Shown here in pieces: positions 7,850 to 62,825 of a DNA stretch of 64,000 nt. The first letter of the stretch is position 1. Each line of letters begins with the position of its first letter. This DNA comes from Macrocystis pyrifera (lineage: Eukaryota > Sar > Phaeophyceae > Laminariales > Laminariaceae). The notes under the pieces were generated by a model. That model had not been told where the DNA came from and did not search any database. It saw only the letters and a list, made by a program, of their open reading frames with translations. A program made the translations under genes and the position numbers. The stretch lies in NCBI GenBank assembly GCA_031763025.1, contig JASSKH010000006.1, positions 16,333,479 to 16,397,478 on the forward strand, given 5' to 3'.

Positions 7850-8124
7850 GTTAGCCGGTACGATTCTTCATGCACTTGCTCTCGGCTCATTCGGATCGTT
7901 CGACGGGTGTTTGTGGTGGTCGGGTTAGTTTGTTTGTTGGTTGGCTGGTTCTTGTGTTTTTGATTTCTTGCTTTGTTTTATTTTGGCCACCGCGTGCCAT
8001 TACTGCTCTCGGGGTTCGTATTCACCTACGTAGGGCGCTCGCATTTATCCACAGGGAGACCTGAATGCGTGTTCATAGGTCATAAATCGGTTATGCCCCT
8101 CCCCCCCCCCTTGGTTGTGTCGAG

Positions 8125-21332: not shown

Positions 21333-21432
21333 NNNNNNNNNNNNNNNNNNNNNNNNNNNNNNNNNNNNNNNNNNNNNNNNNNNNNNNNNNNNNNNNNNNN
21401 NNNNNNNNNNNNNNNNNNNNNNNNNNNNNNNN
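21333..21432. other. Assembly gap (100 N)
   Basis: Exactly 100 N, a conventional unknown-length gap. The sequences on the two sides are joined by scaffolding only, so order and distance here are not certain. Confidence 0.99.
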
Positions 21433-22559: not shown

Positions 22560-24189
22560 GTTGACGACGATACTGACGTCAGAAGCTGCTGGTGATGTCC
22601 AGTAGCTGTTGGAAACGCGGCTTAGCAAAATGCTTGGTCCCGATATCGGCGGGGTTGTCCTTGTGGAGATGTAGTGAGTCGAAATCTTCCCCTCGGATAC
22701 CAGCTCGCGAATGTAGAAGTAACGGAGTGCAATGTGCTTGGTTCGAGAACTATATGAACGGTTTCCAAGCGCATGCAGAGTTTGCAGTGTTGTCGCAGTG
22801 AATCGGCACTTGAACGAACTGCTCCCCAAACCCTAGCTCCGTCAGCATGTTCATGCAGAACACGGCTTCCTTCATCGCGAGTGCCGATGCAACCAGCTCA
22901 GCTTCCATTGTGGACATGGCTGTAAGGCTCTGAAGACCAGATTTGAAACTGATTGGAGCCCTGGCCAACATCATGATGTAACACGACGTCGACTTGCCGT
23001 TGTCCGGGTTATTAGCCCAGTTTGAGTCCGAGAAGGCCGTGAGCTTAAAGCCTCCCTTCTTGTACACAATTTTGAAGTCAGTGGACCCTGTCAGGTACCG
23101 CAAAATGTGCTTGGCCGCCACCATGTGCACTTTCGACGGATTTGACATAGCACGAGAAATCTGACCCGAGCTGTACATTATGTCGTACCTGAGTACAGAA
23201 GCCAGGTACATGACCGTGCCTGCGATCGCTTGGTACCTCTGCTTCTCGTCGGCGTTCAGTAGGGTCTCCCTCCGGCTGCTTTGTGGAGAGTTCAGGTCCG
23301 TATCCGGGAGTCAGTGTTGGCTTGCAGTTGGCGAAACCGAATCGCTCCAGCGCGGACTTGGTGTAGTCCTCCTGGTCGATTGTAAGCGTCCTTTCGGCAC
23401 GGTTGCGGGTGACCTGCAGCCCAAGTACACGCGACACATCTCCCATGTCAGTCATCTTGAACCTGTCCATGAGCTGCGCCTTGATCTTCTCGATTACTTC
23501 GATGTTGCCACCAATCACGAGTAGATCGTCCACGTACAAGGTGAGGATGACGGTGACACCCCCATGCTAGTATATGTAGACACAAGTGTCGGACTTCAGC
23601 GGGATGAAACCGATGACCTTGAGGACGGGATCAATGGTATGGAACCAGTTCCCGGGGCTCTGAGCTAGCCCATAGAGGCTTTTCTCCAGCCTCATGACCA
23701 GAGGGCCTCCATCCTTGTCCTTGGTCTGGTAGCCAGGGGGCTGAGCTACAAATACTTCCTCTTGAATGTCGGCATACAGAAAAGCAGTTTTCATGTCCAG
23801 CTGAAATACCTCCAGATCCAGCTCCGCTGCAATTGCTAGCACCATTCGGATGCTTTGCAGACGGCAAACCGGAGCAAACGTACTGCCGCAGTCCAGGCCC
23901 GGAACCTGGTTCCAGCCTTGAGCCACAACCCGCGCTTTGTATGAGTTATCAGCTTTACGCTTCAGAACCCACCTGGAGTTGATGACTTTCTGTCCCGGAG
24001 GAACAGATGATCGCGGTACCAGCTTCTACACTCCTAGTTCGTTCAGGCTGGCCATTTCTTTGTCCGCGGCAGCTCCCCAAAACTTAGCGTCTGGAAGCTT
24101 CATGGCTTCAGCATATGACTTGGGGACTCCCGGCTGCATGGTCTGTACAGCATACGCGTACTCCACGAATCTAGACATGCCGTTCTTGT
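22560..24189 (-). pseudogene. pol: copia reverse transcriptase-RNase H remnant; protease and integrase absent
   Basis: Reading on the - strand: RT N-terminal part (MASLNELGV, then a stop where Trp is expected), ARVVAQGWNQVPGLDCGSTF, QLDMKTAFLYADIQEEVFVA, and the YVDDL catalytic motif at about 23540 just after a TAG stop. Next come a frameshift near 23250 and RNase H motifs (FSDSNWANNPDNGKSTSCYI; STMEAELVASALAMKEA). Another shift near 22760 is followed by the C-terminal TKHIALRYFYIRELVSEGKI. There is no DDE integrase or aspartic protease between Gag and RT. The element could move only with proteins from another copy, if at all. Confidence 0.9.
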
Positions 24190-25033
24190 GATAGCTGCAC
24201 CACTTTGGAGAGGGTCGCCGGCCTTCTTGCCCTTGTCCTTCCACCTCGACTTTCCCGACTTCGACCGGCTCTTCTTGGCTAGCTTAGGGCAATCTCGCTG
24301 GAAGTGTCCGTACTCGTTGCAGTTGTGGCACCGGTCTTTGCTGGTCGCGGCCATTGCCGCACCACGGCCGGAGACTGCGGGCCCCGACGACTTCCTCGAT
24401 TGTGCGTCGATAAAGTAATTCACAGCGGTTCGCTTTATTTCCTTAACATTTGGAAACTGTTGCCGGTAATGCATGTCCCGCATGAAGCTGTAGTCCGACG
24501 AGTGAACGAGAGCGTTTAACACTAAGTCCTCGAACGTCTCCTCCGGCGTGGTCTCACCCATATCTTCAAGCCGAAGTTTTAAGTCGTCCATGGTTGCCAG
24601 GAAGTCGATGACGTTCTGACCGTGTCGGAGCTTGGCAGAGTGGAGTTGCTCCCTGAGGGCTCGCCGGGATGATTTTGTGTTTTCCGGCGAAGCGTTCCTT
24701 CAGGGCCGCCCAAGCCGCAGCTCCATTTCCCATTTCACCCCCAGTCTTCCCTTGAAAAGGCTTCGTGGTAATGTTAGTGGATTCAACTGTAGAGAAGTAA
24801 ATGAGGGAGAACAACTGGTTGTTCCGACTTTTCCAGTTTGAAGCTGCTGTAGCAGCGTCCATCCCAGTGCCACTTGGGCACGATTCTCCGTCAAGAATCT
24901 TCAGCAGGTCCTGCGAATGAAGACCCACCGCCATTCGAAACTTTTCCGCCCATTCGCGGTAGTTCCGTTGATCTTTGCATTGACCAACGGTTTCGAGCGT
25001 CTTTTTCAACGCAGTGTAAGGTGATTCTGTCAT
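24190..25033 (-). pseudogene. gag: copia gag with CCHC zinc knuckle, frameshifted
   Basis: Starts MTESPYTALKKTLETVGQCK. After ALKERFAGK the reading frame is lost near 24685 and continues in another frame (SSRRALREQLHSAKLRHGQN, then DDLKLRLEDMGE). A CCHC knuckle CHNCNEYGHFQRDC (CX2CX4HX4C) follows at about 24300-24340, then a basic tail. A second shift near 24210 precedes the WCSYHK motif that normally leads into protease. In an intact element Gag would form virus-like particles in the cytoplasm; this one cannot be made as one chain. Confidence 0.85.
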
Positions 25034-25932
25034 CGCCTCCCGATCCTTTTCCAGGGAACGGGGCTACGCTCAAGGCGCGTAGGCTTTCCTCACACGCGTA
25101 ACGCCCCGAGTACCTGAGTATCTCGACGCGCAAGGGACGGTGCAAGATCTTGTTGCTACACGGATGTAGGCTTTTCAGGATTGCAGCCCTGGAGCTCACA
25201 ACCCTTGTCCGCCGGACACTCACCAGTATCCGCCCAGACTCCTATGCTCCGGGAGACACAGGAATAACCTACCACAGATGACTAGGCTGCGGTGTATGGC
25301 GTCGGAGGTGTCAACTCCGGCCACGTCCTGCAGTCACACGGGTCAGATGCACTGCTCAGACAGGTCGAATCCGCAACCTTACGCACGCACCAGAAACCGG
25401 TACGAGAAGGTAGTCTTGGATGTAAACCCTACCTCGCGTGACGACGCACGCGCAGGAAACGTGGAGCACGTTATATTTATTTGATGAGGCTGCCACAACG
25501 GATGCACCCAGCCAAGTCAGATCCTCACCCTTACACACGCTACTGAGTCGGCACCCAGCAGCTAGAAGGTATCTTGGACAGACTACACCTCGCGATACGA
25601 CACGCGCAGGTGATTTCGAGAAGTCAATTACACAGACCCAGAATACCTGAACGGTACTCTGCACATGCGAACCAACAACCCTGCACAACTCTATTCGCCG
25701 ACCTGAATCAACGCCTAGAAGTTGTACCCCCGAATGCTTTACACACAGCAGTAGCGTGCCGAATGTGCAGCCGATAATCCAGGTGATCAGTCCGGATCCA
25801 ACAGCAGACGGGTTGACTCAATGTAGACCTCCAGCAGAAAGCTCCCTCCAGCAGAAGAAACCTCCGCAGAGACGAGGTGTGTGTTCACTACACGCACAAC
25901 GCGAGGCTCATTAACCTACATATAAAGACGAC

Positions 25933-29661: not shown

Positions 29662-29892
29662 TATGGCCTCTGCCAGATGATATCAGCAAGAGGGCTTCCA
29701 GCGAGGGACTCCACCAGTCTCGCTGGCCTCGCACTCAGTAAGTCTTGTTCTTAGAGCTTGTATTATCACGGAGTGATCCTCATCGGACCACGAGCCAGGT
29801 GGCTAGGGGACATCACACAGGATCCCCGGCCACTGCTCCACTCACACATGCGATTACACTGAAACCTCCACGGCTTGGTATCTTTTGGCTAC
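29662..29892 (-). repeat. Ty3 3' LTR
   Basis: 231 bp (233 if TG...CA ends are used), identical by eye to 35190-35420. Preceded on the - strand by the purine-rich GCTTTGGGGGTGCT. Confidence 0.93.
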
Positions 29893-29971
29893 AGCACCCC
29901 CAAAGCGAGTTCACTCGACACGAACGAGCTTGACAAAACCAAAAAACCAAGACGAAATCGCATGCGGCAAA

Positions 29972-32900
29972 TCACAAATCAATGCTGAACTCTGAAGCAA
30001 TTTTAATCTTGAGCGCACGGGTCATCCGTAATTTGCGCAATTCCTTCACGACGAATTCAGGCGCAGCAGAATAAATCGACCGCAAAGACTCCCACGTGCG
30101 CTCCTCTGCTTCGAAACCATCCCAATCGACCAAGACAATCACCTCGTTGGCATCATCTTCGGCCACATGCACCAAAGCATTCATGCGGCATTCACCCTGC
30201 GCAAAGGAATGTTGGAAAACATCCTTCAGATCAGCGGTGACGTTCAACGTCGCATCCGCATAAAATCGTAAACGAGCCACGTGAGCTTGATGCACCTTCC
30301 CAGAAACGATGTTCTGAACTGAGTACACATGATCATGATCAGCTGCTACCACACGCCACGGACCAGTCCATGTGGACAACAATTTCGGTGTGGCACCCTG
30401 CCGACGAACACGAGCATACAACACGAAATCACCAACCGCAAATTTTGGCAACACCACCTGGCCCTGAGCCTGTTTACGTTTGTTGTCGCGAGACACGGCA
30501 ACAGCTGCGCGAATATCGGCGCAAAATCTCTCCTGCTCTGCAACGACTTCACGGACGTTCGCACGCAACAAGTCAGCATTCATCACGTCAACATTCCACC
30601 TGCCATCAGACTCAGAAACGAGCGCCGAGAAATCGGTACGCGGAGCACGCCCAAACATCACGCTGTACGGAGTGCTTCGGTAACGTTCACGAAACGAAGT
30701 GTTCAAGGCCCACTGAGCGGCCGGCAAAACATCAACCCACTCCGAAACCTGACGACGCTGTTCTGACAGAATGGAACGCAGAGCACGTACCACCTCTTTT
30801 ACCATGCGTTCACACGTACCGTTCGACCACGGCGTGTAAGCGACAGCAAAACGATGTTCGATGTGCAACGCGTCGCTCAACAAAGCAAGCACCCTGTTCT
30901 TGAAATGCGTGGCGGTATCACTCACCCACACACGCGGCACCCCCAAAGTCTTACACCAGGCTAGCAAATGCTTCGCTGTGACCTCGGCTGTACAAGCCTC
31001 GGCCGGTTCCAACGCCACGTAGTTGGACAAATCATCCATGATGACCAAAACATATCGGAAACCATCCTCATCAGGCAGGCCATCGCTACCTTCGGGCCCG
31101 CTGTGGCCAACATACAAAAAATCAAAGTGCACCACTTCTCCCGGAGCGGTACCATGCACCGTGTCTCCGTAGGGACGAGGAATGAGTGCACCTGCACGCG
31201 TGTCTACACAGTGCAAACACTGGCGAACGAATTCGCGAACCTGAGAATCCATGTGAGGCCAAACACAATATTCCTTCAGGCGAAACAAAGTCGGCGCCAC
31301 ACCACGGTGACCAGCCGAGCGCATGTGCGCGCACACCATCAAACGAGTTTGAAGAGCAAGATCATCCGGCGGAATCCACAAGACGTCACGCACCCCAACA
31401 CGCACACGAAACAAACCATCATCGGCCAAGGTAGCTTGACCGAAGGTTGTCGAAAATTCATGAACACCAACGCCGATACGAGCGACAGACCTTTGTTGCG
31501 AGGCACGAATCACATCCAATGCGGGAAGCGAATCGTCAGCATTACATGGGCTGTGCACGGCAACCGAACGAACAGGCACCGTAGGAACTTTGACCCAACG
31601 AGACAACAGATCCCCCCAACAGTTTCGATCGCCAGGGATGTGTTCGATTGCATAGCGGTATTGTCCTAAAACACCCTTCCAATTCTCTAGGCGTTGTGCC
31701 ATGGTCTTTGTGACCGTCGTGACACACTTCTCCGGATTGAAAATGTACTGCAAGTTTCGATGATCAGTAAAGATATGAACACCACCCCAAAGCAGGTATT
31801 CGAGCCTCCGGAACGTATTAACGATCGCAAAACCTTCTTTGTCGACAGTCGCCCAGCGCAACTGCGAACCTGTGAACGAACCACTCAGAAATCCGAGAGG
31901 CTCGTGAGACATGCTTTCCAACGCCAATCCACTGCGAAATTCGTGTTCAGGCACTTGGGTGAGAAAACTACCCCAATGGAAATCAGAAGCGTCAGGAAAC
32001 ATCAAAACAACGCACCCGGGACGAGGATGATGAAGCGGCACTGCTTGCGCCACCAAACCCCGTGCGGCATTCCACGCCCGCACCCGATCCTCCGTCCACG
32101 CGGTATCCTTGATGACACGATTGCGCGCCACTCGCTTAGTCCGACGTGTAGCCCCAACAAGGAGCTCCTCCAAAAAATCACGTAACGGTGCTACCGTTTC
32201 CGCTAAACGTGGTAACGATGTACGCAACCAGTTGACAGCCTGCAAGAATTGCATTAGTTCTCCAGCGTTTTCGGGACGACGCATTTCACTTAAACCTTGC
32301 ACTCGAGCGGGGTCATGGGACACGACACCATTGGAATACACCTTACCACACCAGACCAGTTCACGAGAGAAGAAGGTACACTTGTGGGCGGCGACAAACA
32401 GTCCAACATTCTCCAGGCGTTCAAGAATGTCATCAAGCAGCTGCAGAAGAGCTTCTTCGGTGTCTGCGAAAAAGAAAACGTCATCGACCCAAACTTTGCA
32501 ATCCAAACCACGCAACACTTCAGTCATGACACCTTGGAAATAAGAAGTCGCATTCAAAACACCTTGGGGAGCACGGGTAGGCGTGAACAAACCGTCGCTT
32601 GTCGCCATGGTGAAGACGTCTTGCGCCTCCGGAGCCAAAGGCATCTGCCAGTACCCTTGAAGTAGGTCCAGCTTGCCGAAGAAACGCGCCCCCAGCAGAT
32701 CTCCCATGTCTTCATGGTTGGGCATGACGCCCGGGGACTTCTCCACCTGTGCGTTCACCGCCGAGTAGTCGCTCACCAAACGGAAAGAGTCCTTCTTGGG
32801 CACCGCCATCGCCGGACTCGCCCACACCGCCTGGATGTTGTGGTAGACAAAGCCAAAAAACACCAAAGCAGCAATGCACTTCGAGAGCCAGTCCCTTTTC

Positions 32901-34345
32901 GTCGGTTCGTACCGACGTGGCGTTGCCTTGACAGGCTTCGCCTGTTGCTTCAGCTGCACTCGCATCGGCTCCACTTGCGCTGGCGGATCACCACACAGCG
33001 CACGGCGAAAAGCACCCACGCGACGAGCCAAAATTTCGCGCAAACGGGTTGCTCCGCCGACGCTTAATCCACTCTGCTCTGCCTGCTGCACGCTGTCCTC
33101 CAACGCCCGTTCTCGGGCCGTCCGCTCCTCCTCCGGATCCATGAACATGTCTGGCCCCCGGTCGACCAAATGTTCCACCGCCTTGTCCTCCGGAGCATCC
33201 ACCGTAGCCTCGGTCTGAAAAGCACGCACGGAAACCGTCACTCTGCGCGCCGCAAGGTAACTCGGAGTCTCCACACCGGTCGATACCGGCACTGCGCGAG
33301 GGCGAAGCTTCTCCAGAGCTTCACGGTAGACGTCGATGCCAAGAGCTTTCATGGTAGCCATGCCAAACAGAACGACGTTATCTGTACCAGGCATGACCGC
33401 GAAAGTGATGGGCTCCAATTTCACCGCTCCCCACGGCGTCCGTACACTCACGGCAATCGGCACCGTTTTGTGCGTGACCATCACTGAAACACCCGTAGCG
33501 GTTTTCGCCTGCTGCGGGCCATTTTCGAACGGAATTTGCAGATCGGCGCCGCCGAAATGCGAAGACAGCTGCTGAAGTAAGCCGACACCGATGGACGTGA
33601 GCGCCGACCCCGAATCAAGGATCACACGCGCCATCAGCGAACCAACCGACCCTGGCAAAGAGAGATCAGCGCGTAAACACTCAGCGCTGCGATCGACAGG
33701 CACTTCACCTGCCGTTGAACTCTGGTCGGTACCAAGAGTCACCTGACGCCATGGCTGCCCTCCTACAGCCGGCGCCGAAGAAATAGAATCGGCGGTCCAC
33801 CCCGACCAAGACGTCGAATATACAGACGGTTCCGGCGCTACCGCCCCTGCAGCAGCACCAGACACTGACTCCGCCCGCTCGGTGGATGGCGAAGTTCTCG
33901 CTCCAGCAGCACCCACCGATGTTCCAGCTCCTCCAACGTATACAGCTCGGCCGGCAACAGACGAACCAGATCCCGACCCAGCGGCTCCTGCCGCTGGCGC
34001 ACCAGAAGTTGAAGAAGCAACAGCAGAAGTTCCACCGCCCGCTGTCAATTGATTGCCACCACGGCCACCGCGCCCGCGTCCATGGTTGAATCTGCCCCGG
34101 CCGCCATTGCGGCCCCCGCGATACCCTGACGACCCGCGCCCACCACTGCTGGGAGCTGTGCCGCCACCGCGAGCTTTTGGGCAATCAGAAACATAATGGT
34201 TGGGATCACCACACTCGAAACAGACGCGAACAAACGACTTTTTCGCGGACTGCTGCTGTTTCGGTTTCTGCTGCTGTTGGCGTCGCGGTTCAGCTGCCCC
34301 TGCAGCATCTTTCCGACCATACGCCTCGATGAATTTCCACTGTTC
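29972..34345 (-). CDS. pol: Ty3 Gag C-terminus/Pol polyprotein (zinc knuckle, PR, RT, RNase H, IN, chromodomain)
   Basis: One uninterrupted frame from the T-run at about 34345 to the stop at 29972. Upstream of 34048 it encodes the nucleocapsid knuckle CFECGDPNHYVSDC and a Gly/Arg-rich tail. Numbering from 34048 (1358 residues): aspartic protease DSGS at 145-148; RT from about 405, with FGKLDLLQGYWQM (Asp461) and the catalytic VWVDD (519-523, where many relatives have YIDD); RNase H acidic residues Asp685, Glu737, Asp761; integrase zinc region (His907 ... CLHC 943-946) and DDE triad Asp975, Asp1043, Glu1079; chromodomain-like VDWDGFEAEERTWESL at about 1307-1322. No initiator Met is needed if expressed as Gag-Pol. 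The frame looks functional. Confidence 0.93.
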   Translation of the reverse strand, partial: EQWKFIEAYGRKDAAGAAEPRRQQQQKPKQQQSAKKSFVRVCFECGDPNHYVSDCPKARGGGTAPSSGGRGSSGYRGGRNGGRGRFNHGRGRGGRGGNQLTAGGGTSAVASSTSGAPAAGAAGSGSGSSVAGRAVYVGGAGTSVGAAGARTSPSTERAESVSGAAAGAVAPEPSVYSTSWSGWTADSISSAPAVGGQPWRQVTLGTDQSSTAGEVPVDRSAECLRADLSLPGSVGSLMARVILDSGSALTSIGVGLLQQLSSHFGGADLQIPFENGPQQAKTATGVSVMVTHKTVPIAVSVRTPWGAVKLEPITFAVMPGTDNVVLFGMATMKALGIDVYREALEKLRPRAVPVSTGVETPSYLAARRVTVSVRAFQTEATVDAPEDKAVEHLVDRGPDMFMDPEEERTARERALEDSVQQAEQSGLSVGGATRLREILARRVGAFRRALCGDPPAQVEPMRVQLKQQAKPVKATPRRYEPTKRDWLSKCIAALVFFGFVYHNIQAVWASPAMAVPKKDSFRLVSDYSAVNAQVEKSPGVMPNHEDMGDLLGARFFGKLDLLQGYWQMPLAPEAQDVFTMATSDGLFTPTRAPQGVLNATSYFQGVMTEVLRGLDCKVWVDDVFFFADTEEALLQLLDDILERLENVGLFVAAHKCTFFSRELVWCGKVYSNGVVSHDPARVQGLSEMRRPENAGELMQFLQAVNWLRTSLPRLAETVAPLRDFLEELLVGATRRTKRVARNRVIKDTAWTEDRVRAWNAARGLVAQAVPLHHPRPGCVVLMFPDASDFHWGSFLTQVPEHEFRSGLALESMSHEPLGFLSGSFTGSQLRWATVDKEGFAIVNTFRRLEYLLWGGVHIFTDHRNLQYIFNPEKCVTTVTKTMAQRLENWKGVLGQYRYAIEHIPGDRNCWGDLLSRWVKVPTVPVRSVAVHSPCNADDSLPALDVIRASQQRSVARIGVGVHEFSTTFGQATLADDGLFRVRVGVRDVLWIPPDDLALQTRLMVCAHMRSAGHRGVAPTLFRLKEYCVWPHMDSQVREFVRQCLHCVDTRAGALIPRPYGDTVHGTAPGEVVHFDFLYVGHSGPEGSDGLPDEDGFRYVLVIMDDLSNYVALEPAEACTAEVTAKHLLAWCKTLGVPRVWVSDTATHFKNRVLALLSDALHIEHRFAVAYTPWSNGTCERMVKEVVRALRSILSEQRRQVSEWVDVLPAAQWALNTSFRERYRSTPYSVMFGRAPRTDFSALVSESDGRWNVDVMNADLLRANVREVVAEQERFCADIRAAVAVSRDNKRKQAQGQVVLPKFAVGDFVLYARVRRQGATPKLLSTWTGPWRVVAADHDHVYSVQNIVSGKVHQAHVARLRFYADATLNVTADLKDVFQHSFAQGECRMNALVHVAEDDANEVIVLVDWDGFEAEERTWESLRSIYSAAPEFVVKELRKLRMTRALKIKIASEFSIDL

Positions 34346-34982
34346 TGCAGCAGAAAAAAATTTGGTCCATGACCAATGCCGGGTCCTTCTTCCACCCTGC
34401 AGCGTACGTTAGCTGACCTTTTACGTACTTTTTGAACTCGGACGGCCATAAGCCATCCACCAACGCCATGCTCACAAATTCCGCCGGTCCGGGCAACCAC
34501 GAACGGTCCTGCGCGCGGTACATGGCATGCACCGCGTGATTCTCCGCAAAATACTTTTCCATAGCGGAGTTTACCATCATCGCGCGGTCTTTGACGGATG
34601 TTTCACCGCCCTGCTTTTCATCGCGCCTCATTGAGAGAACGCGACGCAAGTCCGCTGCCGCCCGCGAGGTGTCAAATCTGTTGCTGGTGGTTGTGTAACC
34701 AGCGTGCTGCCTAACAGCGTCCAACAACTCCGAGGCGGTCATCGTAGTCTGATGCTTGTAAAATCCCTCAAAACACCGATGAATGTAATTGGGGATAAGC
34801 TGGCCCATGCTCACTTTGGAGTGCTGAACCACCCCCTGAGCGTTGGCGAGCTGCAGCCGTTCCTCATAATCGAGGTACGCTGCGTAAAAAACACGAGAGG
34901 CCTGCTCGGTCCACACCTCTCCGTATTTCGGTGGAGTCAGAGACTCCCCTACCACCAGCGGCGTGCTTGCCGTATGCGCCAT
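34290..34982 (-). CDS. gag: Ty3 Gag, N-terminal part
   Basis: ATG at 34982; 230 codons. The body is a helical retroviral-type capsid region (for example MGQLIPNYIHRCFEGFYKHQ and FAENHAVHAMYRAQDRSWLP). It reads correctly to MDQIFF at a T7 run (plus-strand A7 near 34347) and then drops into a short nonsense tail. The real continuation (SAAEQWKFIEAYGRKDAAG ... zinc knuckle) is in the frame shared with pol. So either the element uses a frameshift at the T-run to make Gag-Pol, or one T too many (or two too few) is recorded. In the cell it would assemble the particle that packages element RNA. Confidence 0.85.
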   Translation of the reverse strand: MAHTASTPLVVGESLTPPKYGEVWTEQASRVFYAAYLDYEERLQLANAQGVVQHSKVSMGQLIPNYIHRCFEGFYKHQTTMTASELLDAVRQHAGYTTTSNRFDTSRAAADLRRVLSMRRDEKQGGETSVKDRAMMVNSAMEKYFAENHAVHAMYRAQDRSWLPGPAEFVSMALVDGLWPSEFKKYVKGQLTYAAGWKKDPALVMDQIFFCCRTVEIHRGVWSERCCRGS

Positions 34983-35189
34983 AATCCACAGCAGTCCACC
35001 TGGACTCTACTGTAATAACGGAGAAACTGCCGCCTGACCTGTGCGTCCTCCAGCTCCCGGAGCGTCCTCCCCTGCTGTGCGCTTCAAGCCGTTTCGATCC
35101 GTCCAACGGGCCAACTGCCTTCCCAGCTGTGACCCAATACTCCGCAGCCGAAAACTCCTCCAACAGAAGTTCCGCGAATATCTAGATAT

Positions 35190-35420
35190 TATGGCCTCTG
35201 CCAGATGATATCAGCAAGAGGGCTTCCAGCGAGGGACTCCACCAGTCTCGCTGGCCTCGCACTCAGTAAGTCTTGTTCTTAGAGCTTGTATTATCACGGA
35301 GTGATCCTCATCGGACCACGAGCCAGGTGGCTAGGGGACATCACACAGGATCCCCGGCCACTGCTCCACTCACACATGCGATTACACTGAAACCTCCACG
35401 GCTTGGTATCTTTTGGCTAC
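35190..35420 (-). repeat. Ty3 5' LTR
   Basis: Identical to the 3' LTR. The sequence following it on the - strand (ATCTAGATATTCGCGG) does not match a primer-binding site I know. Confidence 0.93.
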
Positions 35421-36128
35421 AGCACACAGAGAGATGAGCGCTGTGGTCACAAAGCACGATAATATTGAGACTATCAATCGCAAATAAATGCAGTAGTAGT
35501 ATACTACTACTGAAGTAGTGACATTAGACAATGCACAACAACATACATATACAACATACACACGCCAGCAAACTAGGTTTAATGCAATTTGAAAGAGACA
35601 ATCCCGGAAGAAATACAGAAACTAAGATACTCTGTACTAATAGATACCAGTTCGATTTGACCACTCTGTACCTGGACATGCGAGCATGTCGAAAACTCTA
35701 CATACCATTTATATTAATGTAATATTAATACTGCAGTATTTTTGCTCAGTACGTGCAATAAAAGAGACAGGCCCGAGTAAGGTGGAGGAAACGAACCGGG
35801 TTCGAACCGGTACACGAAAACTGCTGTTATTTAAGAGAACTAAGTGTGGACAGGGGTTTCCTCTCGCTCTCCGGGGCGCCAAAAAAAAAAAAAAACGTGC
35901 AAATAAAATACTGGGGGTGCCAGGGAATGGAAGAAATCGAAATCGAGCCGTCCATGTCGGCCCGACGACGGTACGATTTGTACATCGACAAAGGCCGAGA
36001 GTTCACACCCGCAGTATTCGAATCAACCCGAAAGAATATATACAACAAGCAGGCGGTATCGCAACTTTCGATGCGAACGATACCCACGACTTTTTTTTGC
36101 AGCTGTTGTTTTCGATGGCACTTGTGCT
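35421..36128 (+). repeat. Dispersed repeat copy 1, right part
   Basis: Continues the repeat interrupted by the Ty3 element, matching 39059-39481 and 39913-40205. It contains an uninterrupted ACTAA (35837-35841) where copy 2 has a 431-bp insertion. A palindromic CCGGGTTCGAACCGG at about 35804-35818 resembles a Pol III B-box/T-loop. The similarity ends at CTTGTGCT (36128). No protein recognised although frames of up to 223 codons occur. Confidence 0.88.
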
Positions 36129-38968: not shown

Positions 38969-40227
38969 CTTTTTTTTGCAGCTGTTGTTTTCGATGGCAC
39001 TTGTGCTGTTCGATTTGTTTTTTTTTCCGTAGTACTGTCCGTACTGATTGTAAATACTAGCACACAGAGAGATGAGCGCTGTGGTCACAAAGCACGATAA
39101 TATTGAGACTATCAATCGCAAATAAATGCAGTAGTAGTATACTACTACTGAAGTAGTGACATTAGACAATGCACAACAACATACATATACAACATACACG
39201 CGCCAGCAAACTAGGTTTAATGCAATTTGAAAGAGACAATCCCGGAAGAAATACAGAAACTAAGATACTCTGTACTAATAGATACCAGTTCGATTTGACC
39301 ACTCTGTACCTGGACATGCGAGCATGTCGAAAACTCTACATACTATTTATATTAATGTAATATTAATACTGCAGTATTTTTGCTCAGTACGTGCAATAAA
39401 AGAGACAGGCCCGAGTAAGGTGGAGGAAACGAACCGGGTTCGAACCGGTAAACGAAAACTTCTGTTATTTAAGAGAACTAACGGAAGACCCCCACGGCAT
39501 ACCATGGGACCCTAACTCTAACCCTAACCCTAACCCCAACCCTAATGCCGTGGAAGGTTTTGCCGCAGGTCGTGCCACGGCTTGCCGCAGGTCGTGCCAC
39601 GGCATGCCGCGCGAAAAAAGACAAATAATGTACATCCCTGGCCATGTACATTATTGTCATTTTTCGCGACATGCCGTGGCATGCCGTGGCACGACCTGCG
39701 GCAAAACTTCCACGGCATACCACGGAATCTTCCACGGCATACCACGGAATCTTCCACGGACCCCCACGGCATACCATGGGACCCTAACTCTAACCCTAAC
39801 CCTAACCCCAACCCTAATGCCGTGGAAGGTTTTTCCGCAGGTCGTGCCACGGCTTGCCGCAGGTCGTGCCACGTCATGCCGCGCGAAAAAAGACAAATAA
39901 TGTACATCCCTGACTAAGTGTGGACAGGGGTTTCCTCTCGCTCTCCGGGGCGCCAAAAAAAAAAACAAAAACGTGCAAATAAAATACTGGGGGTGCCAGG
40001 GAATGGAAGAAATCGAAATCGAGCCGTCCATGTCGGCCCGACGATGGTACGATTTGTACATCGAAAAAGGCCGAGAGTTCACACCCGCAGTATTCGAATC
40101 AACCCGAAATAATACATACAACAAGCAGGTGGTATCGCAACTTTCGATGCGAACGATACCCACGACTTTTTTTTGCAGCTGTTGTTTTCGATGGCACTTG
40201 TGCTGTTCGATTTGTTTTTTTTTCCGT
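38969..40227 (+). mobile_element. Dispersed repeat copy 2, bounded by identical 62-bp direct repeats
   Basis: The segment starts and ends with the same 62 nt (38969-39030, 40166-40227: C, T8, GCAGCTGTTGTTTTCGATGG ... GATTTG, T9, CCGT). Between them is the repeat also found at 29629-29661 plus 35421-36128, here interrupted at 39482-39912. No protein is recognised. Short terminal direct repeats around a non-coding body recall TRIM or SMART elements, but the ends are not TG...CA and copy 1 keeps only the first part of the right terminal repeat, so the class is open. Confidence 0.6.
39482..39912 (+). mobile_element. 431-bp insertion carrying telomere-like repeats, with 5-bp target duplication ACTAA
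   Basis: Inserted into dispersed repeat copy 2 between duplicated ACTAA (39477-39481, 39913-39917); copy 1 has the single unoccupied ACTAA at 35837-35841. Inside are two 154-bp direct repeats, 39487-39640 and 39759-39912, differing at two positions. Each contains a degenerate CCCTAA array (39509-39546, 39781-39818) followed by GCCGTGG/CCACGGC-rich palindromic sequence and a GAAAAAAGACAAATAATGTA end. The 118-bp middle (39641-39758) is an inverted, imperfect copy of the same material, so left and centre can form a long hairpin. No coding capacity. Repeat-middle-repeat with a target duplication is LTR-like; no known class fits. Confidence 0.8.
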
Positions 40228-52448: not shown

Positions 52449-53276
52449 CTATGGTCGTGTGATTGGTGACTTTTCGAAGAAAGAACTTTGGAAGTTGTGC
52501 AATTTATTCCTCAGTTTTTCCTTCTCGTAACCATTTCTAATCATGTCCTTCATCAGCTTTGCTGCAGCTACTTGGAAGTATTTGATCCCTGTGCATCTAA
52601 CTGCAAAGCGGCATAGTTGACTGTGAAGAGTAGCGTATAAGCAACTCCTTGACAGTCTAGTTTCTACATGGGGGAATCTACGATATTGAGCTAAAGTTGG
52701 CATGTGGTCACGTTTGTCATACATTCTAATCTGTGACACGCCAGGTGGGTTTTGGAATATTTCCATATCAAGAAAATGTACTGTTTCTCCTGATTGTTCT
52801 TTAGCAATAGATATAGGGTTAACCATTTCACTACCATCTGCGTCCTCTACACTCGTGGGATACATGCCACCATAGACATTGCCTTCTTGTTTGATGATCT
52901 GTTCGAAAGTTGGGCTATCGGGTTGTGATCCCAGCGAAACTGTATGAATATCATCTATGAATCGTTTAGTGCTAGCCCCATATTGTTCTATAAACGAATA
53001 CGGGTAAAGGGGTTCATTACCATTATTCTTGGCTTGCACGTAATTATCAATCATGACTCTCAGAAATTTAAATTCGTGCATGAAGGCGAAATCATTGGCT
53101 AGATCGGGTGCTGGTACCGTTCCCATAAATATTCCTGATGCTTGCTTATACATATTCTTTCCAAACTGTACGAATCCTTCATCTAATACGAAGTTAATCC
53201 ATTGACATAGTTTGGTTCGTCCGATGTGAAACTCGTTGGTGTCTTTGTGTACTGCCCTTGCGTCAACAGGGTTTTT
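52449..53276 (-). pseudogene. Penelope-like reverse transcriptase fragment
   Basis: On the - strand an RT core: an upstream segment (VLDEGFVQFGK), then GIFMGTVPAPDLANDFAFMH, the catalytic RFIDDIH (residues 64-70 counting from the Met at 53153), then ETVHFLDMEIFQNPPGVSQI and a C-terminal RMYDKRD ... SQLCRFAVRC ... MIRNGYEKEKL. The FLD-x-I, Y-x-K and R-x-G-Y order after the catalytic site is typical of Penelope-like RTs. The frame is interrupted by a T9-type run (A/T homopolymer at 53271-53281) upstream and shifts again near 52470, where the better continuation is TTIEGVDKATTRDTYWHIVE. No GIY-YIG endonuclease was found. Probably a decayed or 5'-truncated copy. Confidence 0.65.
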
Positions 53277-53958
53277 TTTTTACCAATGTACTTCTCGAAC
53301 TGCTGGAGCTACTCCATCCTTATTATAACCATATCTAACATACAATGATTTCCATCCGAAGTTTGTTTCTTCATATTCGTACACTAATTGCAATAACTCG
53401 TTCATAGTTCGTTTTAAACAAGTACGTAACAGGGATGTTGTTGTACATTGCTACAAAATCGATATTTATACGCAAGATGGGAAGGAAAAAAAAAAAAGCG
53501 AAATACGTAGCAAGTACCTGATACCTGGGAGGTCTTTAACCACCGAGTCGCGAGAGAAGATAGTGCTTATATTTTAAAAAAGGAAAACTGACACCTGGCG
53601 TATTGGTGGTAGTAGCGTGGTTAGGGATACTTGTTATTTGACACCAGATCTGAGCTACGATAGGGAGGAGCCATGAAATGTAGAGAGTATCAAATATGTG
53701 TGTAGTTTATCTATTACTGTAATTCACGCGTAGTATTAATTGTAGCAGTAAGTACCGCCGTAGTAGATCAGTAGCAGGATAGTAGTAGTAAAGTAAGTAG
53801 TAGTATCAATTATTATTATGCTTTTGCCTTCTGACAAAATAGCGTAGACGCCGTTCCTATATAAACCAAATATATTTCCGTAAATCAGTAGTATCCCTCA
53901 TACACTTCTCTGCCTTGTCGTTTCCAAATTCCCATTCCCCACAACATTTCATTGTAGT
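53277..53958. other. Upstream remnant of the RT element and AGT-rich DNA; no gene
   Basis: 53283-53420 still encodes RT-element sequence on the - strand (VRYGYNKDGVAPAVREVHW), out of frame with the main piece. Beyond about 53430 only short frames and (AGT)n-type repeats near 53745-53815 are seen. Confidence 0.5.
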
Positions 53959-54489: not shown

Positions 54490-54830
54490 AATTTTGCCTG
54501 TTGGGCTAAAAAAAGGTTAACCAATCGCCTACCCAATCTAAGCCTCATAACACTATCCCCCGCTGGAACGGACCGGATACATGGGTCGACGCGTGACACC
54601 AACACGCGGTTCCAATTTCTGGGGATCCAGAATTATGTTTTCAGATTCTTGACATGAGGGAATTCGCTCTTCTTTAAAAAGCGATTTCATGGTGGACGTG
54701 AGTTTCGAACTCACGACCAACGACCCATGTTCTGCCGTCGTCGCCATTTAAGGTTTTAGTCCGTTGGGCTAAAAGCAAAAGGTTAAAACCCATCGCCTAC
54801 CCAATCTAAGCCTCACAACAGCATCCAGTC
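54490..54830 (-). repeat. tRNA-derived SINE-like repeat, most complete - strand copy
   Basis: On the - strand: GCTTAGATTGGGTAGGCGAT, A-box-like TAGCCCAACGG (near 54770), B-box GTTCGAAACTC (near 54707), ACGTCCACCATGAAA, a body of about 120 nt, then GAGGCTTAGATTGGGTAGGC and AGCCCAACAGGC at 54500-54545. It straddles the left edge of the visible duplication (54705). Confidence 0.55.
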
Positions 54831-56253
54831 TTTGAACTCTGCAGCTTCAGATCTCGTCTTTCTCATATCCGGACTGATCTATGTATCCTGCATGAGGGCA
54901 TGCAAATGCATTAACAGTATCACACACAGCTTGCAAATATGAGTATCGACGGAACCCTCGATCTCACAGCTGTTGTTTCTTCATTTTACGAATATGCTTC
55001 GAAGTATATATGCTGTTACAATATCTCTCTACTGCTTGCTGTAGGCATCGCAACAATCAGAACGGACACTCCTGGGTGTGCTGCACGTCGACGAGTAGAT
55101 ATATCGACAAGAATATACACACACTCCAAGGCGCGTCCACAGAACGTACCGCAGGAAAGTGGGGTGTATGATGATTCAGTGTTATAAATAAGGGACTACT
55201 ACTGCGGTATTATTGCAGAAATTTTTCGATTCAAGTCGGAATGGAAAATATCATGTGCCTGGCATGATACAACTATTTATTGTCGGAGGTTAAAATTCAT
55301 GCTTATAGTAGTATACCACATCCATATATACAAAGTTTCGTGCAGATATTCGAAAAACTGGCTTGAGTAGGACAATCACCCGAAAAAATCGACCCTACAC
55401 ACGGATTCAGCGTAGACGTAATCAATACTTATTGGCTTGTGCTATCCCGAAAGGGTTTCCATTATTTTGGACGCCGTGAAAATCAGAAACTCGCATCAAA
55501 TAAAAATATTCGTAGGTTCATTCGGTCAATTTTGGCAATCGATCATCTAACACGTTTGCAAATTATCTATCTTACTATGTTATGAGTCTGTACCTGTCGG
55601 ACACACACGATAACCGACGAGCTAGCAGTCAGCGCTGGCTACTAATGATATCTGGTTAACTCTTCTTGTGAATATCTAACAAAGAGCTTCGAAGCCCCTT
55701 ATCGTCTTTCTTGGTATTTTCACCTGTTCGATGGCTAATACGGGGAAAAATTCACGCGTGAAAGTCATGGTCGGCAAAAAACAGGCGCCATCGTCCCGTC
55801 TTTGTGAGAAAATCCAGTCCTACTAATAGCTAGAAGAGTTCTAGCCCTTTCCTTGAGGCTTTTAGTACCGCAGTCCCGTCTTGGGGACACATCACTGAAA
55901 TTTTGAGTAGTTTGTCCGCGAAACGGAGCTGCAGTACAAAAAGGGTGAACACCCATACAAAAAGAACCCCCCCCAGAATGTAGTATTGTTGCAAGTAGAT
56001 GTACGCCAAAACCGTCGAGCTACTGCTGCTGTAGCAACCAGCTACGAGGACTGCAGCCAGCCCTGCTACGAGTAGGTCAGTGATTTCGTTGTGCATCTAG
56101 ATAAACCTAGCGTGCGAGTACTGCTGCTGTAAACATCTTGGACGTACGTATGTGCGCAACATCCAAGATAACTCCACGGATAACACCTGCACCCGTGAGA
56201 AGTATGTGGGGTCAAAGGTGCCCACTCCTACCCCAGGTTTATTACCAACCCAC

Positions 56254-56332
56254 TTAGGACTGCTGTCCCGGTTTGGGGACACCGTACGTATAATTTGAGT
56301 AGTTTGTCCCCAAAACGGGACAGCAGTCCTAA
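56254..56332. mobile_element. 79-bp foldback element, duplicate copy
   Basis: Identical counterpart of 1550-1628 inside the large duplication; same inverted arms starting TTAGGACTGCTGTCCC. Confidence 0.7.
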
Positions 56333-58752
56333 ACGAGTCAAGCAAGGAGTCACTCATTTGTCAAGAACTGTTTCTTCGTTGTAAGAAGAGCTCTTTGATA
56401 CTGCAAAAAACGGTCGTGCAGGGTCAACGAAGGGGATTATACTTGCTTTCTCTGAGTTCCCATTCTTTCTTAGGTCGAACAGAGGAATGCATATTCCTGG
56501 AATTGCACGGGCGTAACGGCAGGGCGACGGCCAAACATAAGCACGTACGTACATTCGGTCACTTTAATAATGAAACCTCGGAAATGTTCCTTGTTTACTG
56601 TAGGTTGGCCGCGTACGCGCTGCCTTCTGTTTTTATATCATGTGCTTACATTCGTGTGTAGCGTCTAGGGGTTGGTTGTTGTTTAGTGTTTTTTAGCAAC
56701 GGAAGATTGTTGCCCGCTGAGATGAATATTTGTGGCAGAAGGCTAGAGTTGGGCCCGAAAATACATTAGACCGCAGGGCAGATGGTGGCAACTAAGGTGG
56801 AAAAAAACTACAGTTCCTGGACGCAGAGCTGACTATGGCGGCTGGGGTATTTGCGTACCTCTTGTTCACATTTCTCTACCCCCGCCAAATCAACCTGACA
56901 ACCGATTTGGTGGCTCGCTATTAGGTCGCACCTAAGAAGAAAATCAACGCCTCACATTTAACCACAGTGCCGACGTTGACCTTTCCCCAACGAAAACCGC
57001 GTCAAACGTATTTCCTCTGTCCAAGATTCGCCGTTCGATACAACGCGCAAATTCGACCGAAGCAAACAGCCCGCGACTACTGTGCACCCGAACAAAGTAA
57101 AACAATATATTAGAAGAACACGCCAATAGCACGTGAGCAAAGTAAAACTAATCAAGAAATCACTGCTGTAAACAATGTCAAACAACCACCGATGACACAA
57201 CTATCCCTTTATAACCTTAACGCGAGAAACAGTTTGTTCAAGTCGACACCAAAACCCCAGCGGCCCTTACATGTTTGTTCAGCAATACGTGTTTTCGTGT
57301 GCGCAAGCGTAAGGACCGCTTGATCTTCCTGTTTCTATACCCGAACGGCCCTTACTATTAATATAACATGCTCTAATGTGTTCGTTCGTGCCTCCGGGCG
57401 CAGAAAATTTAAATCTGCGATCTTATTTCCCGAAATGAAGCCTAGCGAACACTCTTCGACACCAACATATAGGTATCGACTGTCGCTCATCATTTTACTC
57501 ACCCTCGCCAACGATCAACTCGTTTGACGACGCCGGTGTTAAGGTTTTGCTGCTCCCCTCCTTCCCCGTCAGACACACCCATACCGCTGTGGTCGCAGAT
57601 TGTGTAGCCACGAACAAGGCGAGCATTTCTCGAGTCTCACCCGAAGAGGCCGTCTGTGAATACGGAAAAAGGTCGGAACACATGGGCGCGAACTGGGTGT
57701 ACCCTGTCTCCCTCGGCTCCTTTCGAGTGGGCGATCTTCCCTCCCTCCATGCACCCCTCCCCCCCCTACCTCCGCCTTTCCTTTTGTCGCTCCCTCCCTT
57801 CTCCACCTCTTCTTCCCTCCCGCCGTCACCTTTCCTTCCCTTTCTTCATGCCCGCATTTTTTTTGTCCCTATTTTCTCTCTCATATTTCCGGTCGAGTAG
57901 AAGCGCGTTTCATGTTCTTGTCAATATGTCGAACAAGCAATCGTTAACACAAGAGGTAGAGCACCAAGGGGTTCTGGAGACCTTCTGCATGCTACTCAAC
58001 ATCGAACGTACCATGAGGTTAAAATCATGCTGTAGTATGAGCTCGAAACCATTGTGAACGTTGGCTTTCTTGTTTAGTTACCAGAAGAACAGACTAACAC
58101 ACACAGCATTGTATACAACTACTATTGGTACAACTACTTACTACTACTCTTGAACCTAGAGAGATACGAGCTCTGTGGTCGCGAAATACGACACGGAGAT
58201 GATTGATTGCGGCCATTCATTTGTGTCGCTGCATTGTTTGTAGATTGCGACCATCAAAGCAGGAAAACATTCGCGGAAGAGGACGGGTTTGTGAGGTACC
58301 AGGTACATGGTTTCATCCGAAGAAATTGGTCTTTGCCCGAAGTACGTGTTTCTGCAGTGGTGTCACGTACTGTACTATGCACAGACAATGATATATATGA
58401 CACTTTAAAACATATTTCGGTGGAGTCACGTAAATGTAAGGACCGTTTAAGCGTTCGTGTTGAGTCTCAAAACGGTCCTTATACGTCCATCCAGAGCGGT
58501 ATGCTGCAGAATGCTGTTTTCTCGTGAACTGATCCTGGTGCCGATGCTGCTGGCTGCTGTGCGGCGTCGTCGCTGTTGTTGCACCGCTTACTCATTGAAC
58601 GTCTACGCTACGCCGTTTGTCAACCGCCGCAGAACACAACTTACTATCTCTAACGGACAAGCTTGGCAACAGAACAAGTCCGCGTGCAATTAAGGAAATT
58701 TCAATATTTCATTTTTTATTCGTTCCTGAATCATTTTCCCTTTTTCATGCAG

Positions 58753-59134
58753 TCATCAGAGTCTGATTTCCGGACAGCTCTTAGCTGTCTTTCAAGGGAT
58801 TGGGAGACAAGCAGGGGGACTCTACAGCGAGGCTTGGGATCGAGGTCTGCAATACGAGATCGGCAATCTTACGAGGGAAGTGATAACCACGACAGCGTTA
58901 CACTTCGTGACGGACTGCGTGACTGACCGCGCCACATATGGCGTCACAGATGGAAGTCCGAGCGGTGCGTCCGACAACGCCTCTGACTGAATCAAACGGG
59001 GGGTGGGGGGAGTAGTAGAGTCTTGGAACTTGTGGCGCGCGTACTGCATGGGCGACGTTCCTGAAGTCGGTGCAGGGCAAACGGCTGGGGCGGGGAAAGG
59101 GGCGGAGGTTATCGGAGGAGTTGGCAGGAACGAG
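58753..59134 (+). CDS. Copy B of the predicted 5' exon(s) (4055-4433)
   Basis: Same acceptor, same frame, same TGA and same GTGAGT donor as copy A, with a net 3-nt length difference in the GGGGGGTGGGG tract. The preserved reading frame despite the indel is weak support for coding. Confidence 0.4.
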
Positions 59135-59450
59135 GTGAGTGGTTGTGCTCTCATGAGCACGGTCTTTCGTCAAACCTAGTGCCCAAGAACGGCTTAGTGA
59201 GAAGTAAATACCGACCGATCGATCTGATCGGTTGGTCGGTTGATCACACTAACCCATCCGCCAATCAATCAATCACTCAAATCAATCATGTCGACAGACC
59301 AGCGTGTCGATCAAAGATATCGATCGAAACATCGAACGAATCAACTAATCACTCAAGCAATCAATCAATCCGTCAGTCAGCCAATCAACCAATCCGTCAA
59401 TCAATGTATCAGCCAGTCAACCATGCAATCCATATATTCTTCAACCAACG

Positions 59451-59497
<47 letters not shown>

Positions 59498-59790
59498 CAA
59501 CCATCAATCAATCAATCAATAAATCAATACACTTGACCAGTCTATCAACAGCTATTCCCGCCGCCAACACCACCACCATAACTAAACTCACCACTGCAAC
59601 TCACTCACCCCTCCCTCCCTCACGCCTCTGGTTTTCCTCTCCATAATTGTCTCTCTGCATCGGTGTCCGCCATACTCCTCCCCAAGACCTCCGCCGTAAC
59701 CAGTTTCCACGAAAAAGACGGTTCAGAGAATGTCGTTTGTAAGTTTAACAAAGAAGTTTACGACGTGGACGAAGAGAAAGGATATTGCAG

Positions 59791-59982
59791 TTGCGTCATC
59801 GAAGACGTGCTCGGAGGAGGCGGGCTACTGGAGGGCAGCGGCGGGGAAAGGGGCGGCAGCGGAGATGAAAGTGATAGTGGGGGTGGAAGCGTGCGTGGAG
59901 GCGGGTGCGGGAGTAGCACTGGCCGGGGGTGCGATAGCAGTTCGATCTCGCAACACTGCACGGACTGTACTGGCTCACGACG
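59791..59982 (+). CDS. Copy B of the predicted Ala/Gly-rich exon (5086-5277)
   Basis: Identical length and splice signals to 5086-5277; no difference seen within the exon. Confidence 0.4.
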
Positions 59983-62460
59983 GTGAGTATAAATGGGGGA
60001 GACGGGGATAAAATCGAGTGATGTTTTACTGTTGTTTTTCATCTGTTCCCTTGTTGTCTGGCGGCGGTTCACTGGCCTTTTCTTATGTACGGTGTCATGT
60101 ATTCTACGTGTTGCGCCTTGGGGTATTTTGGCGTGTGGATTTGTGAGTTTGTTATCGTGTCATGTATCTGTGTTCAATGTTTGTTGCGTATGACATTTTG
60201 TCCTTTTTTGGCGTCTTTAGTCTTGTGCCTAAAATGGTTGGTTGATCGGCTTGGTTGTTGTGTGTCTCGATTCGCGTACGATACGGGTATTGCCCATTGT
60301 GTTTCGTATGGTGTGCCTTGTGCGTCATGTTGTTTGGTAGCGTGCTTAGTCGTGTTCCTAGCATTAAATGGCTTGGTGTAGCTAAGCACACGGGACATTC
60401 GTCGGGACCGGGTACCGATTCTTGTGGCAACGTAAAAAGTCATGTAGGCGCGAATGCGTAAGGGAGATGTGGGAATCTGCGGGTAGTTGGTTTCGATAGT
60501 TTGGCCCGGAGATGGAAATATCTCGTGCTGCCATGACAGCTCCCATCACGAGTGTGTCGCCGTGCTTCGTTTGTCGTTTCCCTCCCTCGCACTACCACCG
60601 ACACGTAACGTCCGCGCTAAACGTGGTCGGTATCAATTCTGTTATCTGATTGCAGGGTCTCCCTTGTGTAGCGTGGTCGTTGCCTGACTGCCCTGCCCCT
60701 TCCTCGTCGACTGTTTGAATCGATGACGAGAAGAACTGTTCCCCCGTTTTCGAAGGCGTTCATACAAAATATCTGTTGGCGGTTGAGTGTCGATATTTCC
60801 CCTTTCTCTCCCCCTAAAGCCACTCGTCCCATAGAAAATTGAAAAATTTCTCGTTCTTTCGTTTTCGTCCCAAGCGTTACGCCTGCTTTGGCTCAAATCG
60901 GTATCTCACTCGCTTGCCCCCCTACCCCAACCAACCACTATCATATCCCAACCCAACAATATACTGTCACAACCCAACCCAACCCAGCCCAACCCCGACC
61001 TTCACTTCCAACCCTACTTTGATGTTGCATTGCTGTTTTATGTTGCAACACAGCAGTAGGTAGTAGCCTATCGATTGGCTGTCGAGAACTTGGTCATCTG
61101 ATGTTTGGTGTAAATCACAGCAGTACAACGAGCTCATCTCACGAGCAGCAGTGTATTCGTGATTGCGGGATTAGGGTACGGCTTCATGTGAGGTGAGGCC
61201 CCAACGTTTTTGTTCGAGTCTGATAGATCGATCGAGTACCTTGCGCTCGCTTTCTCTCTTGGTCTCGCCATCATCTCATTTTCGAGACGGTCGATGATCG
61301 AAACAAAGCTGGCGTTTGAGCGCCTCTTACTTCACCAGGTCTGCGGAGCAGAAGCTCATGTTGCCAGTAGGATGACGCCGAGTGAGTACTTTCTTCATGT
61401 GTGCCCTGTGCGGCATGCCTTATCAGTTACATTACATACCACTTGTGTGAATCTCGCCAGTACAACAACACTATTATCAGTCTCATCCCCCCCCTTACGC
61501 CCAACTCCGACCACTCAACTTGCTACGGGAAATCGAACGAAGGTCGCCGAGGATTGTCGGATCGATTCGCGGCACCCTTGACTACGACACCATCACCGTC
61601 GCTGCCGTGACCCCGCTTGCGAGCGCGGTCACACCTCAAGGCGAGCAGCACGCCTCGAACGATGAAGGAGGTGGTGGTGGTGGTAGTGGTGAGGGGGGGA
61701 GGTGTAGCGGTGGTGGTGTAGCTACCGGGGCGGCGCTGTGGCAAAGGGTGGCGTCTTCGTTCCAGCGGGCGGACCGCGCGAAGTGCGACTCCGAGTGGTG
61801 CCGGAGCGGAGGGACGTCTGATAGGTGCGGTGCGCGTCGGGCTGGTTCGGGCCTGTGCTTGTGCTTGTGCCTTGCTTGGGGACGAGGAGGGCCGCAAGGA
61901 TGGCGTGGTGGATTAGTGAAAATAAGCTGTGGAGAAGGTTGTGGTGTGGTGGTAGGGGGGGGGTGCAAGGGGAAGAGGGTATAGCGGTTAATGGCAGTTG
62001 ATGAGTTCCACGGTCCCTTGGTCAGTGCTGAGGAAGGAACGGGAGTAAAGGGGTGGGAGAAGGGGGGCGGATGTTTGCGCTGGTCTCGTTGCACATCGCA
62101 CATCTCCCGCTTGTCTATGAACAGCTTACTTGCTGTTTGTTTGTGATTTCGGTCGTCCGTATTGTGTCTACGGATGAAAGAATGAAGTTACGCCCATGTA
62201 GTCACCGTGAAGAATATTGCCGATTGTCTTTGCTGACGAGACCCGCATATCCACCCGCCGCTCTGCCCTTCGCTCCCGATCGCCGCCCCGCTTTCTTCGA
62301 ACCAAACGTCCGCCCCTCTCGTATTTACGAACTGCTCACCACGTGCCACACGCGATGGTAACGAACCTCGGGGGGCACAAAAATATATACCTGGGCCATA
62401 ATATGCACGTTCTTTGGTAAATCATCATACCTATGTAACGTGATCTGTAGCCAACCTCAG

Positions 62461-62550
62461 CACCCCACGCAAGAGCTAACGGGTGGAGCAAGTTCCCGGC
62501 GGAAGTTCTCACGGAGCAAGAAAGGGGCTTTGACCGGCACTACGGCCGCG
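62461..62550 (+). CDS. Copy B of the predicted exon at 7760-7849
   Basis: Same splice signals; two substitutions relative to copy A, both synonymous in the proposed frame. Confidence 0.5.
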
Positions 62551-62825
62551 GTTAGCCGGTACGATTCTTCATGCACTTGCTCTCGGCTCATTCGGATCGT
62601 TCGACGGGTGTTTGTGGTGGTCGGGTTAGTTTGTTTGTTGGTTGGCTGGTTCTTGTGTTTTTGATTTCTTGCTTTGTTTTATTTTGGCCACCGCGTGCCA
62701 TTACTGCTCTCGGGGTTCGTATTCACCTACGTAGGGCGCTCGCATTTATCCACAGGGAGACCTGAATGCGTGTTCATAGGTCATAAATCGGTTATGCCCC
62801 TCCCCCCCCCCTTGGTTGTGTCGAG

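Follow-up and report, generated by a model that had tools for sequence, protein, structure and literature searches.

A dispersed, putatively hAT-like family of gene-less transposons carries telomere-like repeats in Macrocystis pyrifera

A 431-bp insert at positions 39482-39912 of a 64,000-nucleotide stretch of Macrocystis pyrifera DNA (the whole stretch analysed is hereafter called the window) most probably represents a MITE of the hAT type, a palindromic DNA transposon without genes, in the form of a broken head-to-tail pair. Its 272-bp unit belongs to a dispersed family with recurrent ends, imperfect inverted repeats and 8-bp target duplications in many copies; the telomere-like array lies inside the unit and travels with it, and the site was formerly empty. 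We read it as a putatively new MITE family, hAT-like in kind, by which interstitial telomere-like repeats are dispersed. The element is of a known type, and its telomere-like cargo alone is unusual. The features of the site, in window coordinates, are as follows.

39059-40204 (39059-39481 and 39913-40204), plus strand: host repeat that received the insert; core SINE-like by eye
35421-36128, plus strand: further copy of the host repeat, lacking the insert, with its empty site (ACTAA) at 35837-35841
39477-39481, no strand: left copy of ACTAA, probably the leading 5 bp of a former 8-bp duplication ACTAAGTG, judging from the comparison of filled and empty sites and from 8-bp duplications elsewhere
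39482-39486, no strand: CGGAA, filler or remnant at the broken left end, without counterpart in the second repeat
39487-39640, plus strand: right arm (154 bp) of the truncated first copy, including a telomere-like array; 98.7% identical to 39759-39912
39510-39545, plus strand: telomere-like array 1, six CCCTAA-type units
39641-39912, plus strand: complete 272-bp palindromic unit, delimited by recurrent match boundaries and the head-to-tail junction 39640/39641
39644-39718, plus strand: left inverted-repeat arm of the complete unit, 76.9% against the reverse complement of 39817-39907
39707-39769, plus strand: tandem CCACGGCATACCACGGAATCTT repeats of 22 bp, located between arm and telomere-like array
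39782-39817, plus strand: telomere-like array 2, six units
39817-39912, plus strand: right inverted-repeat arm, with end GTACATCCCTG (reverse complement CAGGGATGTAC)
39913-39920, no strand: right target flank ACTAAGTG, whose first 5 bp also stand on the left

Direct reading and self-comparison placed ACTAA on both sides of the insert (39477-39481 and 39913-39917), whereas the empty copy of the host repeat has it once; with the insert left out, the flanks of the filled and empty copies aligned with few differences. A genome search with the host repeat (40 rows scored, 636 candidates) returned 34 rows that ran unbroken through the insertion site; of these, 5 were almost complete in length and 29 covered the core at 86-91% identity. 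The remaining 6 were the halves of three filled sites, namely the window and two segmental duplicates. The insert is therefore the derived state, an insertion and not a loss from the other copy, and the 431-bp insertion noted in a preliminary description of this DNA was borne out. In the empty copy the host-repeat core occupies 35763-35895; it showed, by eye, a B-box-like GGTTCGAACC and an A-rich tail, and had no match in Rfam. A Ty3/Gypsy-like retrotransposon (29662-35425; 236-bp repeats 100% identical, and a long open frame with reverse transcriptase, RNase H and integrase domains) sits in that other copy of the host repeat, where AGCAC flanks it at either end, and is probably a recent insertion.

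Within the insert, the 154-bp direct repeats (39487-39640 and 39759-39912; BLAST E 1.4e-74) differed by two mismatches, G against T at 39562 and again at 39602, and each carried a CCCTAA array, as first described. The middle (39641-39758) is related, in inverted orientation, to the right part of the direct repeat. The order of direct repeat, inverted middle and direct repeat was thus correctly seen, except that CGGAA lies outside both repeats and that the natural unit is the middle plus the second repeat, 272 bp that begin and end with related inverted sequences. Alignment showed these unit ends to be inverted, the left reading GCCATGTACATTATTGTC... and the reverse complement of the right end CAGGGATGTACATTATTTGTC..., so that terminal inverted repeats, which the preliminary description had missed, are present on the 272-bp unit in imperfect form. 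The array stands 95 bp from the right end of the unit and 141 bp from the left. The first repeat then corresponds to the right arm of a further copy, attached head-to-tail at CCCTG/GCC (the slash marks the joint), and, among the contexts listed, the CGGAA junction was the same only in the segmental duplicates L009 and L010. Open frames cross the insert and matched no named protein, in agreement with its having been called non-coding. Rfam returned nothing for the whole window at the gathering threshold; at an E-value threshold it returned mir-9261 (38.2 bits, cut-off 86) and mir-6579 (19.1 bits, cut-off 47), both below cut-off, and we put these microRNA hairpin matches down to the strong hairpin of the insert. 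A retrozyme or hammerhead reading was dropped, no ribozyme model having matched.

We searched the species' own genome (a 537-Mb assembly in 223 contigs) with the whole insert and obtained 1192 candidate places, of which 40 were scored, so that the counts are lower bounds. Four of the 40 spanned nearly the whole insert: the window, L009, L010 and C140 (L011); L009 and L010 lie on the contig of the window with the same flanks and are segmental duplicates. Among the other 36 large matches, 14 covered exactly query positions 159-431 and none began left of position 152. Of the two ends that had been proposed as constant, the right one, ACATCCCTG, recurred; the left one, GACCCCCACGG, is an internal break of the left copy of the pair, because no other large match starts left of query position 152. 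With the unit alone as query, at least 22 rows (segmental duplicates included) covered positions 1 to 272, and a 32-base subterminal motif of the left end occurred at 141 exact places genome-wide (control, 0). The family has left ends GAGGTATGTACATTATTGTC and right ends CAGGGATGTACATTATTTGTC or CAGGGTTCTACACTATTTGA. These motif places, together with target duplications and dispersed copies, uphold the proposal of a non-autonomous mobile family over that of a one-off. A reading as an LTR element or TRIM was dropped: single units were seen, 4 of the 40 scored large matches span the direct-repeat form, extra arms occurred in two further loci only (L023 and L038), and copies showed 8-bp duplications, whereas such elements have terminal direct repeats in each member and duplications of 4-6 bp.

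The family occurs in two forms. The palindromic form measured 235-280 bp in the 20 two-ended copies found among 36 loci (L012-L047), whose pairwise identity had a median of 98.0% and a minimum of 90.6% (gaps ignored), and it looks young; 18 of 24 two-ended palindromic copies (L012-L043) began with GGGCC. The longer form, of about 345-445 bp, has the left-end motif in common with the palindromic form, starts with GAGGT in 6 of 20 loci (L112-L131) and in L111, and ends mostly in GTGTAGAACCCTG; its telomere-like array is more degenerate, and it carries a long GCCGTGG/CCATGG array. A scrap of the telomere-like array was left in L109 and L110, which are duplicates of each other. In L120, a copy of the longer form, CACCCGTTAGGGTTAGGGTT directly precedes the element, placing telomere-like repeats just outside the left-end motif.

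All 40 of the palindromic copies that we inspected, which were chosen by similarity to the whole unit, contained the telomere-like array, and its length was 36 bp in 36 of them, the others having 48 bp (L039 and L042), 30 bp (L025) and 18 bp (L026). Such constancy is as expected for copies of one master, and it bears on the earlier suggestion that a retroelement or telomerase had driven the insertion of telomeric DNA. Telomere-like repeats are indeed present, and in vertebrates telomeric repeats flanked by pieces of telomerase RNA have been described as inserted at breaks (PMC8537989). However, the array here is internal and not at a junction, its length is nearly fixed, and recurrent ends with 8-bp duplications were found in many copies; nothing points to such mobilisation, and we regard it as very improbable.

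The position of the copies was likewise at odds with a subtelomeric location. Forty-six fetched copies on contigs of at least 8.8 Mb, with segmental duplicates and small contigs left out by hand, showed an even distribution from contig end to middle (KS p = 0.74), and 4 of the 46 lay within 500 kb of a contig end versus 3.2 expected. The subtelomeres of Ectocarpus do carry a 98-bp satellite with TTAGGG motifs, alongside TTAGGG telomeres (PMC11541908), which would favour a fragment of a subtelomeric satellite; this even spread, and unrelated flanks with target duplications, make that reading, or an assembly artefact, extremely improbable, and the family is neither single-copy nor confined to subtelomeres, as had been considered. 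Upstream of the insert of the window, the filled-site copies stand at distances of 54.7 kb and about 201 kb, and window positions 1-9293 and 54705-64000 form a 9.3-kb direct duplication at 99.6% identity, which suggests a large tandem segmental duplication on this contig.

Searches of other collections added relatives. The translation of the insert, used only to find relatives, gave 4 matches at E <= 10 in a protein database, and a profile search gave 21 at E <= 1 (the 4 earlier ones and 17 at E <= 2.3e-10; 7990 candidates scored). The family-like translations were unnamed ENA proteins, encoded, by eye, on other contigs beside unrelated sequence. Three exact patterns had 0 matches each among viral contigs and one exact pattern had 0 among prokaryote contigs, in collections that may omit the species' own genome.

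Target duplications were surveyed at 64 loci (the window, L009-L047 and L108-L131), of which 48 were two-ended and 16 were dropped for want of two recognisable ends. In a fixed frame (the 8 bases before the 5-base start and the 8 bases after CCCTG), flanks were identical at 8 of 8 positions in 14 of the 48 two-ended copies and at 7 of 8 in 2 more. The 14 of 48 is not a family-wide rate, as the loci were best or exact-motif matches, count among them the window with its two segmental duplicates, and take in four (L044-L047) that share one flank. Mismatched flank pairs (2000 draws) reached 8 of 8 in 0 cases and 7 of 8 in 1. The remaining 32 of 48 failed this strict test through age, shift, truncation or unknown reasons; identical 8-mers in a shifted frame were found at L019, L022, L037, L044-L047 and L116, and the other copies had no duplication. 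The preliminary description had taken a 5-bp duplication as characteristic; the members show 8 bp, and it is the insert of the window that has 5 bp. Because of these 8-bp duplications in the family, the ACTAA of the window is probably the remnant of a trimmed 8-bp duplication, ACTAAGTG.

Head-to-tail pairs were few. A search for the junction found 5 exact places, representing three independent events: the window with its two segmental duplicates, C140 (L011) and C190 (L038). Their junctions differ (CCCTG/GCC, CCCTGC/GCC and CCCTG/GGGCC), and no target duplication was seen around the C190 pair. L023 is a fourth, rearranged pair with the 8-mer CCTAGTTC on both sides. In both the window and C140 the left copy is truncated, the breakpoint lying at unit position 119 in the former and 124 in the latter, and C140 has a 4-bp duplication (TACC). 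As a warning, two such like breakpoints are a coincidence under random deletion, and this counts against our explanation. It could instead be that the arm-middle-arm arrangement (1.57 units) is a distinct transposition product, made with the true right end and an internal pseudo-end at about 119-124 and leaving 4-5-bp duplications, as two independent cases of the same architecture, with left breakpoints 5 bases apart and 5- and 4-bp duplications, would suggest. However, there are two cases only, their left ends are not identical (one has the extra CGGAA), their right-flank 8-mers, ACTAAGTG and TACCGTGG, are compatible with trimmed 8-bp duplications, and both breakpoints fall near the palindrome centre, a usual place for hairpin-linked deletions. 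We therefore consider a distinct product quite unlikely; in our preferred account, an 8-bp duplication was trimmed and the left arm was lost up to a point close to the palindrome centre.

The class of the family was approached through the hAT dimerisation domain, for which at least 150 genome matches were listed (317 candidates). One locus, L105 (752-2238), holds a 1487-bp element with a PF05699 hAT domain (51.5 bits), an 8-bp duplication GCAGCAGG and inverted ends TAGGGATGTACATC/TAGGGATGTACGTA, of which 12 terminal bases, AGGGATGTACAT, are common to L105 and the right end of the palindromic subfamily. This single element is internally deleted and could not accommodate a full transposase. Random loci of similar composition yielded 0 comparable end pairs in 40 rounds of 30 loci; by our own estimate the three-mismatch match of L105, taken alone, would be little better than chance, and what gives it weight is that it coincides exactly with the end of a hAT element. 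The other 29 of 30 short hAT loci and two longer ones had no end pair at 12 of 14. As to longer relatives with coding capacity, proposed at the outset, no autonomous partner with the full ends of the family appeared in 30 hAT loci (about 3.2 kb) and two more (7.5 kb) of the 150 listed; L105 shares only the 12 terminal bases. Because of the end shared with L105, the 8-bp duplication and the lack of comparable random pairs, we filed the family as hAT-like with moderate confidence.

The ends themselves give a mixed picture. hAT elements have the consensus YARNG at both ends, and Ac-like hAT elements have a CAGGG right end; the right end CAGGG of the family fits this consensus and the left GGGCC or GAGGT departs from it. 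In the longer form, the right end (CAGGGTTCTACA...) matches L105 less well than it does in the palindromic form. This deviation of the left ends would suit a transposase from another superfamily with 8-bp duplications, such as KDZ/Zisupton or P: Zisupton makes 8-bp duplications (PMC12730594), those of P and hAT are about 8 bp (PMC3706591), and KDZ is the more abundant in Ectocarpus, with 8 families and 6403 copies versus 4 and 128 for hAT (PMC12477816). Against it stand the 12 terminal right-end bases held in common with a hAT-domain element of the same genome, and we rate such a source as fairly unlikely.

On the hAT-like reading, a transposase encoded elsewhere would recognise the ends, excise the unit and reinsert it with an 8-bp staggered cut. 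The head-to-tail pair, which has no duplication between its members at CCCTG/GCC, may have come from a circular or repair intermediate or from slippage, and would have been inserted at ACTAAGTG or formed there. A later deletion, with one end inside the left duplication and the other close to the middle of the first palindrome, would have removed the left arm and produced ACTAA, CGGAA and the right arm in succession. An ancestor may have captured the telomere-like array, which would have spread by transposition and not by telomerase. It is improbable that the array helps the element (e.g., through telomere or telo-box proteins that would bind it and influence chromatin or synapsis) and that the arm-middle-arm form is, in addition, a separate pseudo-end transposition product.

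The family resembles hAT-type MITEs in being short and gene-less, in its inverted terminal repeats, in the 8-bp duplications of many copies, in its CAGGG right end and in the presence of hAT-domain elements in its own genome, and differs from them in left ends that are often GGGCC or GAGGT, in internal telomere-like and CCACGG/CCATGG arrays and in a few head-to-tail pairs. DNA transposons with telomere-type repeats are reportedly known from ciliates, where Oxytricha TBE1 is said to bear them at its very ends, and here the array is internal. Short hAT MITEs are a known class, named among the MITE superfamilies in an account of Acropora corals, whose CMITEs are likewise able to form tandem arrays (PMC2872659). 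The CMITEs differ in their TTAA duplications, their relation to piggyBac and arrays put down to replication slippage, and the string 'telomer' is absent from the main text of that source (PMC2872659). Interstitial telomeric sequences share the internal TTAGGG-type arrays, and a review gives transposition of mobile elements as one possible origin of the large heterochromatic ones (PMC6410037); the arrays here differ in being short, in having an identified carrier and in lying within insertions with target duplications. Transposons of Ectocarpus include hAT, KDZ and many unclassified families (PMC12477816). We recognised in the literature no MITE with telomere-like repeats in brown algae, which is weak evidence, as most subscription journals were outside the search. 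The family supplies short interstitial telomere-like repeats with an actual vehicle, namely a cut-and-paste MITE for which both an empty site and target duplications are seen. Where telomere motifs turn up within assemblies of such algae, they are not necessarily signs of chromosome ends that have fused or healed. Should the array influence chromatin or transposition, this family would lend itself well to testing such effects.

Other features of the window were noted in passing. An assembly gap of 100 N occupies 21333-21432, and Copia-like gag/pol pieces in several open frames were recognised by eye at 22750-25063 on the minus strand. A further frame on the minus strand (52449-53279) is reverse-transcriptase-like from a motif seen by eye, and is without a Pfam match; among its 49 relatives are two with names, which come from the brown algae Laminaria digitata and Ascophyllum nodosum, and we would guess that it is possibly Penelope-like.
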